A DNA stretch of 64,000 nucleotides from Phycisphaerales bacterium (GTDB taxonomy: Bacteria > Planctomycetota > Phycisphaerae > Phycisphaerales > SM1A02). The notes under the pieces are model-generated. The model ran no database searches and was not told where the DNA came from. It saw only the letters and a list, made by a program, of their open reading frames with translations. Below, piece after piece: positions 25,239 through 29,058 of the stretch (positions are counted from its first letter, which is position 1; each line of letters begins with the position of its first letter). The stretch covers positions 1 through 64,000 of the forward strand of contig JAKVBX010000004.1 of the NCBI GenBank assembly GCA_022446795.1, read 5' to 3'. A program made the position numbers and the translations under genes.

Positions 25239-26189
25239 ATGATGTGCACCACGCGACAAGTTGACTCTCACCGGGGATTCACCCTGATCGAGATGCTGAT
25301 CGTCATCGGCATCATTGCGATTCTCCTGGGCATCATCATGACGGCCATCTCCGGGGTCGGGAGCAAGGCCCGCAAGACGAACGAGCGGAACGAGATCCGC
25401 CAGATCGGCAATGCCTGGATCAAGTACGCGCAGATCCACAAGGACCGGATCACCCCCGGTTGGCTGTCACCCTCGACGCAGAACGAATGGGATACCGTCA
25501 TCACGTATCCGGATGGCACGGTCATCCCACCGGCACCCACGTACGGTGGTGAGCAGCCCAACATCGCCGGCCCCTGGACCTGGCGACTGCTCCCGTACAT
25601 GGAATATGACTTCCGCCTCACCCGAAGTCACCTCCGGGAAGACAACTTCAATCACTGGTCCGACCTGCCGCCCGGCATGAGGCTGGAGATCGCCGAGGCG
25701 CCCGCCTACGGCGTCAATGGATACTTCCTCGGTGGCTGCTGGGACCGGTGGTATGGCAACGTCTCCGGCACGCATCCCCGGCTCCGCAAGGCCCGCGATG
25801 CCAGTGGCAAGAAGGTCAACCTGACCACGCGGAGCCTCTCGATGATGCGGAATCCATCGACGGTCCTGGCCTTCATCTCCAATGCCGCGGGCAAACCGAA
25901 CCAGCCCTTGGCCGCGGAGGACTGGGACGCAGGGCACTACCTGGCGACGCCCCATCGACTCGCCGATGATCGGCTGTGGACCATCAACGAGGGTCTCGAT
26001 GTTCAGATGCTCGACGGACGGTCTGGCCCCATTGGCCGCTACGGTGGACCGCCAGTCACGTGGCACCCCGACGGACACGTGGACGCGTTCTCGCTGCAGG
26101 AACTGCTCGACCAGCGGTTGTGGATCGACCAGGCCGAAGACCTGCCCGGGTACGCCGCGGAGCACTACACCTACACCGAAGGGGACTGA
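25239..26189 (+). CDS. Type II secretion/type IV pilus-like pseudopilin
   Basis: A 316-residue prepilin-like protein. The type III signal is textbook: SHRGFTLIEMLIVIGIIAIL, with the Gly/Phe cleavage site and the Glu at position +5, then one membrane/assembly helix. The C-terminal ~250 residues are rich in Trp, Pro and Gly with motifs such as GPWTWRLLPYMEYDF and TWHPDGHVDAFS. They resemble the large planctomycete prepilin-like families that end in an H-x-D-G type motif. GAGG lies upstream of the ATG at 25239. It is convergent with a gene that carries an inserted GspG-like segment, an intriguing pairing. No secretion ATPase or prepilin peptidase is in the window. Confidence 0.82.
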   Translation: MMCTTRQVDSHRGFTLIEMLIVIGIIAILLGIIMTAISGVGSKARKTNERNEIRQIGNAWIKYAQIHKDRITPGWLSPSTQNEWDTVITYPDGTVIPPAPTYGGEQPNIAGPWTWRLLPYMEYDFRLTRSHLREDNFNHWSDLPPGMRLEIAEAPAYGVNGYFLGGCWDRWYGNVSGTHPRLRKARDASGKKVNLTTRSLSMMRNPSTVLAFISNAAGKPNQPLAAEDWDAGHYLATPHRLADDRLWTINEGLDVQMLDGRSGPIGRYGGPPVTWHPDGHVDAFSLQELLDQRLWIDQAEDLPGYAAEHYTYTEGD

Positions 26190-26192
26190 CGG

Positions 26193-27434
26193 TCACTCTG
26201 CGTCGGGGGCCGGAGCCGATCGCTGTTCCAGGCGCTTCATCGCCATGTCCACCGATCGCCTGATCATCATCATGTGGGCCTTCGTCAGGCTGGACTTCTC
26301 CAGGTCGACGGTGATGGCTGGCAACCAGCGGACCTCCTGTTCGGTCCAGCCGAGCGCCTCGAGCCGTTCGCCCATGTCGGCCATGTGACCAGCGCCATAC
26401 ACCACGGCGATCCGGTCGACGTCCCCCACCTGTGAACGCTCGACCAGGTCATTGATGACGATGATGTTCCGTTCATCGATGAGAATCCGACCGACGTCGG
26501 CACCGAACTCACGTGTCGCAATCTCGACGGCCTGGTCGTTTCCGAGGAGTTCGATGAGCATCACCTTGACCCCGTCCGTGACCGCCCCGCCGGTCAGGAC
26601 ATCCAACGCCGGAAGCAGCCGAAGAAACAACTTGGCAATTCCCGCGGGCAGGCTGGACCCCTCCAGCATGCCGGAAAGCCCCTGGATCTCGACGCCCGAC
26701 TCCTGGAAGGCCGCGCTCAGCGCTTCCCAGGACATGTCACTGACCTGCCAGTCTTCCCGTTCATAGGGGAGGACCTTCAACTGGAACTCAAGATCCAGGC
26801 CACGGGCGAGCGACTCCTGGATGCCCTCGACCGCTACCGAGCCCTCCCCGAGGTCAAGGGTGACCTCCAGATCCTCCGCAGCATCCTCGCCACCGGGTCG
26901 GCCATCGGCGCCGTAGCTTCGGACGACCGTCGTGTTTCCGTTCCGGAGCAGGACCACCGGGTGGCCCCACGCGTCGTGACGCAGCGAGCGGACCGAGTCC
27001 ACCATCCGCCGGTCGACATGGACTGACTTCGCCTGGAGTTCATCCATCGAGCCTGGCCAGTCACCGTCCGGACCGCCACAGGCCCTGGCCGCTTCCGCCA
27101 GCCACTCCAGGCGGGCCGACGTGGCATTCTGCTGTGCCTGGATCGTGTCACCGCTCGGCGGCAGCGTGACCTCCGCGTACACGGACTCGTACAGCACGAG
27201 ATCCGAGTCCGCGACCAGTTCACCGACCGCGTCGTAGAACGACTCATCCCCGATGTGGGTCACACCGACCAGCCAGACCTCGGGCCATCCGTCGGTTTCC
27301 GATACGTATCGACGCGAGGCCAGGGTCAACGATGCCGACTCACCGGTCGTCACCTTCGATTCCAGCCAGGACGTCGGTTCCGCTCCAGGATTCACAATCG
27401 CAACGGTCGAAGCCAGGATCACGCTCGCGAGCAT
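26193..27434 (-). CDS. TraB/TIKI-like secreted protein with inserted GspG pseudopilin-like segment
   Basis: A 413-residue protein with a short N-terminal signal-like helix (MLASVILASTVAIV). The flanking parts resemble the TraB/TIKI/EreA-like fold: WLVGVTHIGDESFYDAVGEL and VLYESVY early, then ERNIIVINDL and IAVVYGAGHMADMGERL late, each with the conserved His/Glu-type positions. Between them (about residues 125-200) is a segment that looks like the C-terminal calcium-site region of the major pseudopilin GspG: PGSMDELQ, DAWGHPVVLL, SYGADGRPGGED. The ATG at 27434 gives a TGATG overlap with the ExbB-like gene; a GTG one codon earlier is also possible. Catalysis is inferred from the fold and not tested. 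The GspG segment may have been acquired by domain insertion. Confidence 0.72.
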   Translation of the reverse strand: MLASVILASTVAIVNPGAEPTSWLESKVTTGESASLTLASRRYVSETDGWPEVWLVGVTHIGDESFYDAVGELVADSDLVLYESVYAEVTLPPSGDTIQAQQNATSARLEWLAEAARACGGPDGDWPGSMDELQAKSVHVDRRMVDSVRSLRHDAWGHPVVLLRNGNTTVVRSYGADGRPGGEDAAEDLEVTLDLGEGSVAVEGIQESLARGLDLEFQLKVLPYEREDWQVSDMSWEALSAAFQESGVEIQGLSGMLEGSSLPAGIAKLFLRLLPALDVLTGGAVTDGVKVMLIELLGNDQAVEIATREFGADVGRILIDERNIIVINDLVERSQVGDVDRIAVVYGAGHMADMGERLEALGWTEQEVRWLPAITVDLEKSSLTKAHMMMIRRSVDMAMKRLEQRSAPAPDAE

Positions 27435-28087
27435 CACTCCGGGTCACCGACACCCACGTGTACCGCCACCTTCTGCACCGCCTTGTACCCTTCCTGCGTG
27501 GAGGCAATCATGGTCTCGAGACGGTCGACGGCATGCGCCGACTGTCCCTTGAAGACCATGTACGGGAACAGGGTGATCAAGGCCACGATGAGTCCGAAGG
27601 CCGTCGTCAGCAGGGCCGCCGCGATGCCGCCAGCCACGTCCCGGGGATCCGTCAGGGTCGAGGTCCCACCCAGCAGCTCGAAGCTCTGGATGATCCCGAT
27701 GACCGTTCCGAGAATGCCCAGCAACGGCGAGGCCGTGATGATCGTCGACATCACGATCATGTAGCGATTGAACTTGCGTCGCTCTCCATCGACCGCCTCC
27801 AGTGCCACGGCATCACTGGCACCGTCATCGATCAACCGCTTGGCCACGCGCCCGTAGGGCGTGCGATCCGTGACCAGCAGCTTCTGGACACGTTCGTTGT
27901 CGCCTTTCCGCAGGGCGGCATTCATCTCGGCCAGCCGTTGAAGGCTGGCCCGCCCATTGACCGCCACCCAGAAGATGGCCCGCTCGATGATCAGCGTCAC
28001 GCTGCAGATGCTCAGCAGCAGCAACGGGATCATCACGTAGCCCCCGCGGTTCAGGAGCATGCCGAAGTCACCGAAGAACTCTCCCAT
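27434..28087 (-). CDS. ExbB/TolQ/MotA-type proton channel protein
   Basis: A 217-residue inner-membrane protein with three membrane helices. These are GGYVMIPLLLLSICSVTLII near the N-terminus, MSTIITASPLLGILGTVIGI and GGIAAALLTTAFGLIVALIT. The last two carry the small-residue and Thr pattern of the ExbB/TolQ channel. The start is uncertain. I use ATG at 28087, which has TATGAT 7 nt upstream and no Shine-Dalgarno sequence; ATG at 28099 and TTG at 28153 are alternatives. No ExbD/TolR gene follows. Instead the next gene is the TraB/GspG-like protein with a one-base overlap, so the channel's partner here is unclear. Confidence 0.85.
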   Translation of the reverse strand: MGEFFGDFGMLLNRGGYVMIPLLLLSICSVTLIIERAIFWVAVNGRASLQRLAEMNAALRKGDNERVQKLLVTDRTPYGRVAKRLIDDGASDAVALEAVDGERRKFNRYMIVMSTIITASPLLGILGTVIGIIQSFELLGGTSTLTDPRDVAGGIAAALLTTAFGLIVALITLFPYMVFKGQSAHAVDRLETMIASTQEGYKAVQKVAVHVGVGDPE

Positions 28088-28094
28088 GGCGAGT

Positions 28095-28100
28095 ATCATA
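28095..28100 (-). promoter_or_regulatory. -10 element for a possible leaderless ExbB-like transcript
   Basis: On the minus strand TATGAT (28100-28095) is followed by seven bases (ACTCGCC) and then ATG at 28087. No Shine-Dalgarno sequence is present. The divergent prenyl synthase starts at 28153. Confidence 0.4.
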
Positions 28101-28152
28101 GGGATCGACGTCACTGGACGCACTTCCAGCCCCCTACCCGGAATCCCAGACA

Positions 28153-29058
28153 ATGCCCTCGTCCCAAGCAGCTGAGGCCACGCAGACCGGCATGGAGATC
28201 ATCACCCGCCCCTCATCGATGATGCAGGCCTATCTCGAGTCGTCCATCGACTGGGATCGGCTGCCACCGCATCTCGCGGACGCCGCCCGATACGGAACGC
28301 TCGGTGGCGGGAAGCGGATCCGCCCGGTGCTGGTCATCCTGTCCTGTGAAGCCGCTGGAGGCCGAGCCGAGGACGCCCTGCCCGCGGCCGCCGCCCTGGA
28401 GCTCGTCCACTGCTTCAGCCTGGTTCATGACGACCTTCCAGCCCTGGACAACGATGTTCTCCGCCGCGGCCAGCCGACCCTGCACGTCCATGCCGGTGAG
28501 CCCATGGCGATCCTGGCCGGCGACCTGCTGCTGGCCATGGCCTTCGGCGAACTCGCCCGGATGGACATGGCCGCCAACCGCGTGACGGCACTGGTCGACG
28601 AGTTGGCGTCCGGAACCCGGGACATGGTGGTCGGGCAGGTCTACGACACGCTCGGTGGCCTCCCCACGGACATCGAAGCCCTGGAACAAATCCAGCTGGT
28701 GCACCGGAACAAGACCGGTGCCCTGCTCCGGGCCGCCTGCCGGATGGGTGCCATCTGCGCCGGGGCCGCTGATGCTGAGATCGCCGCCCTGACCACATAT
28801 GGCGAGGCCGTCGGCCTGATGTTCCAGGTGGTGGATGACCTCCTCGATGTGACCCAGTCCACGGAGCACGTGGGCAAGGCCACGGGCAAGGACTCGGCCC
28901 TGGGCAAGCGAACCTACCCCGGCCTCCTCGGGGTCGAGGGTTCCCAGGCGGTCATCGATCAGCTCCACCAGCAGGCCGTAGCCGCCCTTGAGCCCCTGGA
29001 TTCCGCAGGCGAACCCCTGCGAGATCTCTGCCGATATATGGCGATACGGACCAGATAA
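28153..29058 (+). CDS. Short-chain polyprenyl diphosphate synthase (farnesyl type)
   Basis: A 301-residue all-helical prenyltransferase joining IPP to allylic diphosphates, most likely making farnesyl or geranylgeranyl diphosphate. It has the substrate-binding GGGKRIRPVL, the first Asp-rich motif in HDDLPALDND (with the two-residue insertion of bacterial FPP synthases), the Lys/Thr region HRNKTGALLRA, QVVDDLLDV as the second Asp motif and GKDSALGKRTYP. The length is that of IspA. dxs follows 81 bp downstream on the same strand, the common ispA-dxs order. Exact chain length cannot be set from sequence alone. Confidence 0.92.
   Translation: MPSSQAAEATQTGMEIITRPSSMMQAYLESSIDWDRLPPHLADAARYGTLGGGKRIRPVLVILSCEAAGGRAEDALPAAAALELVHCFSLVHDDLPALDNDVLRRGQPTLHVHAGEPMAILAGDLLLAMAFGELARMDMAANRVTALVDELASGTRDMVVGQVYDTLGGLPTDIEALEQIQLVHRNKTGALLRAACRMGAICAGAADAEIAALTTYGEAVGLMFQVVDDLLDVTQSTEHVGKATGKDSALGKRTYPGLLGVEGSQAVIDQLHQQAVAALEPLDSAGEPLRDLCRYMAIRTR

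Follow-up and report, generated by a model that had tools for sequence, protein, structure and literature searches.

What is a segment with the signature of GspG, the major type II pseudopilin, doing in the middle of a protein that otherwise resembles the TIKI/TraB superfamily? This question is raised by a locus at positions 25239-27434 of the window, by which we mean the whole 64,000-nucleotide stretch of a Phycisphaerales bacterium analysed here (contig JAKVBX010000004.1, assembly GCA_022446795.1). Pilin globular domains are known as the bricks of filaments, at times with additional modules grafted onto them. The locus holds two convergent genes, a prepilin gene on the plus strand and a TIKI/TraB-type open reading frame (ORF) on the minus strand, whose stop codons lie 3 bases apart. 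A first-pass annotation, made from the sequence alone, had described the product of the minus-strand ORF as a protein with TraB/TIKI-like motifs on both flanks of an insert that bears the GspG signature and no prepilin signal, and had proposed a domain search, a structure prediction and a survey of planctomycete genomes. Using the residue numbering of this protein in which the GTG at 27437 encodes residue 1, we found that the insert is a GspG-type globular domain, that the whole protein is not a pseudopilin, and that a pilin head in a TIKI/TraB host appears to be a new architecture.

A GspG-type pilin domain within a TIKI/TraB-type protein

Taken singly, the window protein provided modest evidence for a pilin domain. 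Pfam T2SSG (PF08334) matched its residues 106-191 at 22.3 bits, over the cut-off of 21; the NCBIfam GspG model matched residues 148-191 with an expectation value (E) of 0.0015 and 18.6 bits, far under its equivalog cut-off of 88.85 bits; and a search of solved structures with the window sequence alone returned EpsG as the only match, at E 0.46. The evidence became strong once relatives were added. T2SSG matched 42 of 46 aligned relatives at E <= 0.01, the best value being 4e-12, and its matches within the TIKI/TraB-type protein reached 1.2e-12 in genomes of the order (G030). When a profile of the 46 relatives was compared with solved structures, XcpT (2kep) and EpsG (3gn9) were found at 9.5e-11 and 5.3e-10, respectively; haemagglutinin rows in the same search (E 0.2-0.7) were taken as chance helix matches. 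The set A2 leaves out L001, which is the window itself, and L015, L016 and L018, which are near copies or partial.

The AlphaFold model of the window protein, built with the 46-row alignment, had a mean predicted local distance difference test score (pLDDT) of 92.5 and a predicted template modelling score (pTM) of 0.89. In this model, strand 80-83 is followed by helix 99-119, helices 131-141 and 145-151, and strands 162-166, 169-174 and 190-195, with the host resuming at helix 206; the insert is placed about 10-15 residues past the putative catalytic Glu84, in the loop after the strand 80-83 that carries Glu84. Using VIA-align, model residues 96-193 were superposed on EpsG (3fu1/3gn9) with a Z score of 9.7 over 93 residues, at 2.5-2.6 Å and 25% identity, and the insert was superposed on PulG (1t92) with a Z score of 8.3. 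Chance resemblance to GspG is ruled out by the EpsG superposition, the T2SSG matches among the relatives and the profile match to XcpT. Likewise, the identical architecture of 108 distinct full-length sequences, which were obtained from 150 ORFs and served as the conservation set (drawn from loci other than L161-L206 and L227 onwards), rules out a gene-calling artefact or two genes fused in reading.

The same set was used to look for a prepilin leader, and no prepilin motif was found near the N-terminus in any of the 108 sequences, either with a narrow motif or then with a broader one, which rules out that the protein is a pseudopilin or a modular pilin. Also missing from the insert is the pilin helix's hydrophobic N-terminal half, which drives filament assembly and makes the main filament contacts. 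A GPY-type segment of GspG was present in 1 of 55 inserts versus 20 of 29 GspG proteins, the latter having been collected through a leader-plus-core motif that left out L162 and some others not fitting it. The GspG signature and the missing prepilin signal described in the first-pass annotation were both borne out: the T2SSG search that it had proposed gave a match over the cut-off, and the insert in the predicted structure folds like EpsG.

For the host, Pfam TraB_PrgY_gumN (PF01963) matched residues 52-93 of the window protein at 19.2 bits and E 0.0012 (12.2 bits in the search of its own genome), below the cut-off of 26.8, and NCBIfam traB matched residues 310-393 at E 0.00098, far under its cut-off. 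These two matches, although sub-threshold, lie on either side of the insert, where the first-pass annotation had placed its TraB/TIKI-like motifs. Among the relatives, PF01963 matched 39 of 46 at E <= 0.01, with a best value of 8.6e-12, as well as 8 of 10 insertless homologues, one of which (L077) scored 31.1 bits and thus exceeded the cut-off. In PMC6254334, a His-Glu pair, a second His and a conserved basic residue are given as the features of TIKI proteins, and ChaN, HopBA1, BcR135 and PMT are named as TIKI relatives of RRSP. By their positions in the motifs, H61, E84, H351 and R323 of the window protein, each present in 108 of 108 sequences, were equated with the TIKI residues (Table 1). 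The TIKI motif is spelt GxxH.

Fold comparison was less telling for the host. Its part of the window model was superposed on chain 8bqs_DQ of Tetrahymena complex IV with a Z score of 10.0 over 190 residues at 4.3 Å; a figure legend in PMC10060162 names a TraB-family subunit in the Tetrahymena complex IV structure, and chain DQ is probably that subunit. Since the fold list of the window model consisted mostly of pilins, with the host rows weak besides complex IV, an insertless homologue was folded separately (pLDDT 86.2, pTM 0.80). The best neighbour of this second model was the complex IV chain, with a Z score of 8.8 and a root-mean-square deviation (rmsd) of 10.9 Å, followed by ChaN with a Z score of 6.7 over 142 residues at 4.9 Å; HopBA1 scored 5.0, RRSP 4.2 and BcR135 (2rad) 4.2, the last reaching 4.7 with the window model, and unrelated folds scored equally high. 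Foldseek returned no match under E 0.001 for either the window model or the insertless model, and the profile of the insertless alignment A3 found nothing useful among solved structures; a missing or weak family in a fold list excludes nothing. On the grounds of its sequence and residues, the host is assigned to the TIKI/TraB superfamily, and the fold comparison agrees with this assignment, for which it would not suffice alone.

Table 1. Coordinates of the features discussed, in window positions
Feature	Position	Strand	Details
TIKI/TraB-type gene with inserted GspG domain	26193..27437	-	414 codons from GTG 27437, 413 from ATG 27434; stop 26193-26195
Inserted GspG-type pilin globular domain, residues ~95-196	26850..27155	-	T2SSG match; model superposed on EpsG; missing from insertless homologues
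DAWGH, residues 155-159, GspG DxWG core	26961..26975	-	D155 108/108, W157 107/108
GspG-type calcium loop, residues 174-189, SYGADGRPGGEDAAED, with D178 and D189	26871..26918	-	Aligned with the EpsG loop
First [GAS]xxH motif GVTH, residues 58-61 (H61)	27255..27266	-	H61 108/108; invariant in 32 insertless homologues
Glu84, by alignment the TIKI Glu that pairs with H61	27186..27188	-	108/108; E85 of A4 32/32
Arg323-Asn324, candidate conserved basic residue of TIKI proteins	26466..26471	-	108/108; R212 and N213 invariant in A4
Second GxxH motif GAGH, residues 348-351 (H351)	26385..26396	-	G348 and H351 108/108; G237 and H240 invariant in A4
ExbB/TolQ/MotA-type proton channel gene	27434..28153	-	PF01618, 85.7 bits; directly upstream of the TraB-type gene
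Convergent prepilin gene	25239..26189	+	N_methyl leader, 33.4 bits; sub-threshold DUF1559 match; not GspG

Distribution, origin and conservation of the insertion

Of the 301 genomes of the order, 154 gave a match to the window protein; 7 of these matches were weak (E 2e-7 to 4e-4) and may be plain GspG matches. Using a model made from insertless homologues alone, 61 of 151 genomes of the order were positive, and in all 61 a gap of 231-423 bases, corresponding to an insert, separated the two halves of the host on the same contig; no insertless copy was found among the 151 genomes at E <= 1e-6. Among 198 genomes sampled from the class, 37 were positive. The 13 that belong to the order were all split, and the 24 from other orders were all without the insert; 23 of the latter were matched unbroken across the insertion site, and one (G754) gave two matched segments too close together to hold an insert. 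Homologues that are contiguous across the insertion site rule out that the segment is an integral part of the TraB fold, the contrary outcome considered in the first-pass annotation, and the planctomycete survey proposed there found the insert in every positive genome of the order. Across the phylum, the 46-row profile was matched at E <= 0.001 in 313 of 392 genomes; among the matches listed, the halves were often neighbours in the DNA, and some matches were true GspG proteins. A genome-contig scan with the window protein as single query gave no match; in a further genome-contig scan, the best 80 of 461 relatives were all titled as planctomycetes, the closest named ones among them being metagenome-assembled genomes titled Phycisphaerales or Phycisphaerae. 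An orthologue (locus L134) also comes from Planctomycetales bacterium ZRK34 (CP050848), whose record does not carry a metagenome-assembly label.

A full-length insert was also present in seven genomes outside the order (families f38, f44 and f66). Four insert-bearing homologues (L061, L066, L067 and L069) come from planctomycete families outside the class of the window and stand near the sequences of the order in the host tree; the insert copies outside the order could be horizontal transfers. An eighth genome outside the order (G514; 83% complete, 3% contamination) carries a contig-truncated insert-bearing copy together with an insertless copy (L229, L230), which may be a real pair or contamination.

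The origin of the insert was then addressed with unrooted trees. In the tree of host columns, from which the contig-truncated L070/L229 was left out, 33 of 34 insertless rows were placed beyond one branch with a support of 100, the exception being L238, which has a very long branch. Constraining all 34 insertless rows together gave a better likelihood (p-AU, the p value of the approximately unbiased test, 0.789), and the split was supported at 99 when the four longest rows (L238, L239, L223 and L217) were removed. In a tree of the inserts and GspG domains, which comprises few columns, the 55 and 29 rows stood on opposite sides of one branch with a support of 99. These sequence comparisons suggest that the insertion most likely happened once, near the base of the planctomycete order of the window. 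It is read as a gain rather than a loss because the same family elsewhere, including the other orders of the class, lacks the domain.

Next, conservation was compared between host and insert. Ten host residues (H61, E84, Q219, D234, R323, N324, Y347, G348, H351 and W371) were each present in 108 of 108 sequences, and their equivalents were invariant in the 32 insertless homologues of A4, save the counterpart of Y347, which was nearly invariant; A4 leaves out two insertless rows, L221 and L240, which are both present in the tree. Within the insert, D155 was present in 108, W157 in 107, T106 in 105, D178 in 100 and D189 in 101 of the 108 sequences. D178 and D189 are presumably calcium ligands, as assigned by alignment with the GspG loop. 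At least one of them was lost in nine sequences (L064, L065, L068, L117, L118, L124, L127, L130 and L135), and the TIKI-type host site was lost in none of the 108. The idea of the first-pass annotation that the insert binds calcium therefore remains plausible for most members and does not extend to all of them, and calcium cannot be essential to the whole family. As judged from this conservation, the pilin core is retained, and the putative calcium site is usual yet dispensable.

Two groups of sequences depart from the common form of the calcium loop. Three members of family f44, from outside the order (L064, L065 and L068), have lost the loop entirely, with the DAWG core and the host motifs intact, and thereby provide a natural control for calcium binding. 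Three others (L005, L006 and L007), which belong to one subclade of the inserts, have a shorter loop of the GTDDDL/ATDDDL type that resembles some true GspG loops of the same order.

Neighbouring genes and genome context

The TGA of the ExbB-type gene overlaps the start of the TraB-type gene as TGATG, both genes being on the minus strand, in keeping with the position downstream of an ExbB-like channel that the first-pass annotation had noted. Its statement that a true prepilin gene adjoins the TraB-type gene was upheld by the N_methyl leader and the convergent arrangement, but the orientation, given there as back-to-back, is better termed tail-to-tail. No ExbD-like gene was seen beside the ExbB-like gene, and a prenyl synthase gene lies divergently on its other side.

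The neighbours were surveyed by tblastn at 100 loci, of which 92 were distinct after removal of 8 duplicate records, some having short flanks. An ExbB relative was located upstream on the same strand, within ~0.4 kb, at 54 of the 92 loci, and a convergent prepilin relative downstream at 49, of which 44 have it adjacent (within ~0.5 kb) and the other 5 at a distance of 1.7-3.5 kb. Among the housekeeping genes of the block, ispG was found at 50 loci, the prenyl synthase gene at 49 and dxs at 47; at least one of these block members accompanied the prepilin gene in 45 of the 49 loci with a prepilin relative, and ExbB, prepilin and housekeeping genes occurred together in 42. Since these genes travel together, their linkage may be plain synteny. 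At L050/L144, L153 and L154, ExbB was retained, and the prenyl synthase gene and dxs were not found. At the 34 insertless loci, which are only 2-5 kb long, neither exbB nor the prepilin gene nor the isoprenoid neighbours were found.

Genome-wide, 60 of the 61 genomes sampled from the order had T2SSG matches, a count that includes the inserts. In the window genome, two GspG-type genes carry prepilin leaders and three secretins are encoded, so that type II secretion genes coexist with the TIKI/TraB-GspG protein. On contigs C12 (71325-90505) and C56 (105295-115504) of this genome (G000), a secretin gene lies 10-20 kb from a GspG-type gene. The third secretin is on C1; these regions may represent two type II systems and a pilus.

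Proposed role and comparison with known systems

We tentatively propose, with a confidence somewhat short of even, that the protein is exported and acts as a hydrolase, and that its pilin module, stabilised by calcium in most members, sits at the rim of the active site to capture or gate the substrate. Export would proceed via a Sec-type signal, as the N-termini resemble Sec signal peptides by eye, and the TIKI part would be a peptidase or esterase that relies on the H61-E84 pair together with H351 and R323. The insert, which in most members would bind one stabilising calcium ion, might be packed rigidly against the active-site rim and act as an exosite or lid; in the model, the pTM of 0.89 and a pLDDT of 88-92 at the junctions are compatible with such rigid packing. 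Lacking both the leader and the membrane half of the helix, the insert is not expected to serve as a filament subunit. Through gene order only, the ExbB neighbour points to the periplasm or envelope as a possible place of work. A precedent for added domains in TIKI proteins is the extra N lobe of RRSP, which, according to PMC6254334, is needed for activity and substrate handling.

Several observations weigh against this proposal. RRSP has a 2His/2Glu set whose first Glu is missing from the present protein, where V59 stands at the ExH position, and the window protein alone scores under the TraB cut-off. Besides the complex IV chain and ChaN, TIKI structures score no better than unrelated folds, and the complex IV match of the insertless model has a poor rmsd (10.9 Å). 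The absolute conservation of the host residues would equally fit a binding protein. Furthermore, the mean frequency of the top residue is 0.42 in the insert versus 0.48-0.56 in the host, and D178 and/or D189 have been lost in 9 of 108 sequences with DAWG and the host residues kept, both of which would also fit a passive insert.

Such a passive insert would be a pilin domain that came to lie in a surface loop tolerant of insertions; it would have no specific partner and would persist only because it aids stability or solubility. Neutral insertions classically take the form of a complete, foldable domain within a loop, and the lower conservation of the insert, with calcium loops lost where host motifs are intact, agrees with it. 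However, every one of the 61 positive genomes in the order has retained the domain, as have 108 distinct sequences, down to ~25% identity in the 46-row alignment; conservation is at least 92% at each of D155, W157, T106, D178 and D189; and the order yielded no insertless copy at E <= 1e-6 in its 151 genomes. We consider a passive insert rather unlikely. If the host did not hydrolyse at all, it could be a TraB/PrgY-like binder that sequesters a peptide or a metal/haem. One of the nearest folds is that of ChaN, a relative that binds haem, and PMC6254334 mentions TIKI members without the 2His/2Glu set, such as PMT, but the His-Glu pair, the second His and the Arg, which are typical of active members, are invariant in all 108 insert-bearing and all 32 insertless sequences, and a pure binder appears improbable to us.

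Two further explanations give the pilin module a partner among pilins. The GspG domain might bind the pseudopilus or another part of the type II secretion system (T2SS), so that the enzyme is displayed on the T2SS or secreted through it. The two leader-bearing GspG-type genes and three secretins of the window genome, the T2SSG matches in 60 of the 61 genomes sampled from the order, inserts included, and the prepilin gene adjacent in 44 of 92 loci speak for such docking; yet the insert has neither the leader nor the hydrophobic helix half that provides the main filament contact, it differs from GspG in the GPY-type segment (1/55 versus 20/29), and T2SSG matches also occur in genomes without the TIKI/TraB-GspG gene (for example G008 and G045). 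Docking is given a low probability. Alternatively, the module could pair with pilin or pseudopilin subunits, and the TIKI site would trim, remove or quality-control the pilins of the envelope. A TIKI-type active site beside a pilin module, a convergent prepilin gene in 49 of 92 distinct loci (44 of them adjacent) and T2SSG proteins in nearly all sampled genomes speak for this, but no prepilin relative was found in the other 43 loci, some of which are short-flanked, and 45 of the 49 prepilin loci share the housekeeping block, so that the linkage may be plain synteny. We regard a pilin-directed peptidase as very improbable; if true, the enzyme would recognise its substrates by means of a head domain acquired from their own class (GspG), and this would be, to our knowledge, the first pilin fold used as the targeting domain of an enzyme instead of a filament brick.

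Whatever the role of the insert, the exported hydrolase with a pilin module at its rim being the reading that we prefer, the architecture bears on how pilin folds are annotated and studied. A T2SSG match need not mean a pseudopilin, which annotation pipelines should take into account, and insertless and inserted orthologues are both available for comparison in what amounts to a natural experiment on a pilin fold outside a filament. No published description of a TraB/TIKI-GspG fusion was found among the matches listed in a search of titles and abstract starts in the open-licence literature, in accordance with the first-pass annotation, which knew of no described fusion of these folds.

Compared with known systems, the protein shares with the TIKI/TraB superfamily (PF01963; Tiki, EreA/EreB, BcR135, ChaN, HopBA1 and RRSP) the same His-Glu pair, second His and Arg, and the family profile is matched in its relatives; it differs in a pilin domain of ~100 residues after the Glu and in having no second Glu at the RRSP position, and its hydrolase role is putative. 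The insertless planctomycete TraB-type family (for example L071-L080, L207-L225 and L247-L250) has the same host and the same invariant residues, and is contiguous at the insertion site, without the insert. With the major pseudopilin GspG/EpsG/PulG (PF08334), the insert has in common the globular fold, the DxWG core and the calcium-loop motif, but it is without a prepilin leader or the N-terminal hydrophobic half of the helix and is embedded in another protein, and its gene was seen beside ExbB, prepilin and housekeeping genes. Modular type IV pilins likewise combine a pilin and a functional domain in one chain. In PMC8179133, they are defined by an N-terminal pilin module with a class III signal, and members such as S. 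sanguinis PilB are described as carrying grafted domains, even predicted peptidases, while keeping the leader and entering filaments. The class III signal was found by motif in 0 of the 108 sequences of the present family. In modular pilins, the module is grafted onto a leader-bearing pilin, whereas here the usual grafting is reversed, and a leaderless pilin head without its filament helix has been put into an enzyme-like protein and kept across a bacterial order.

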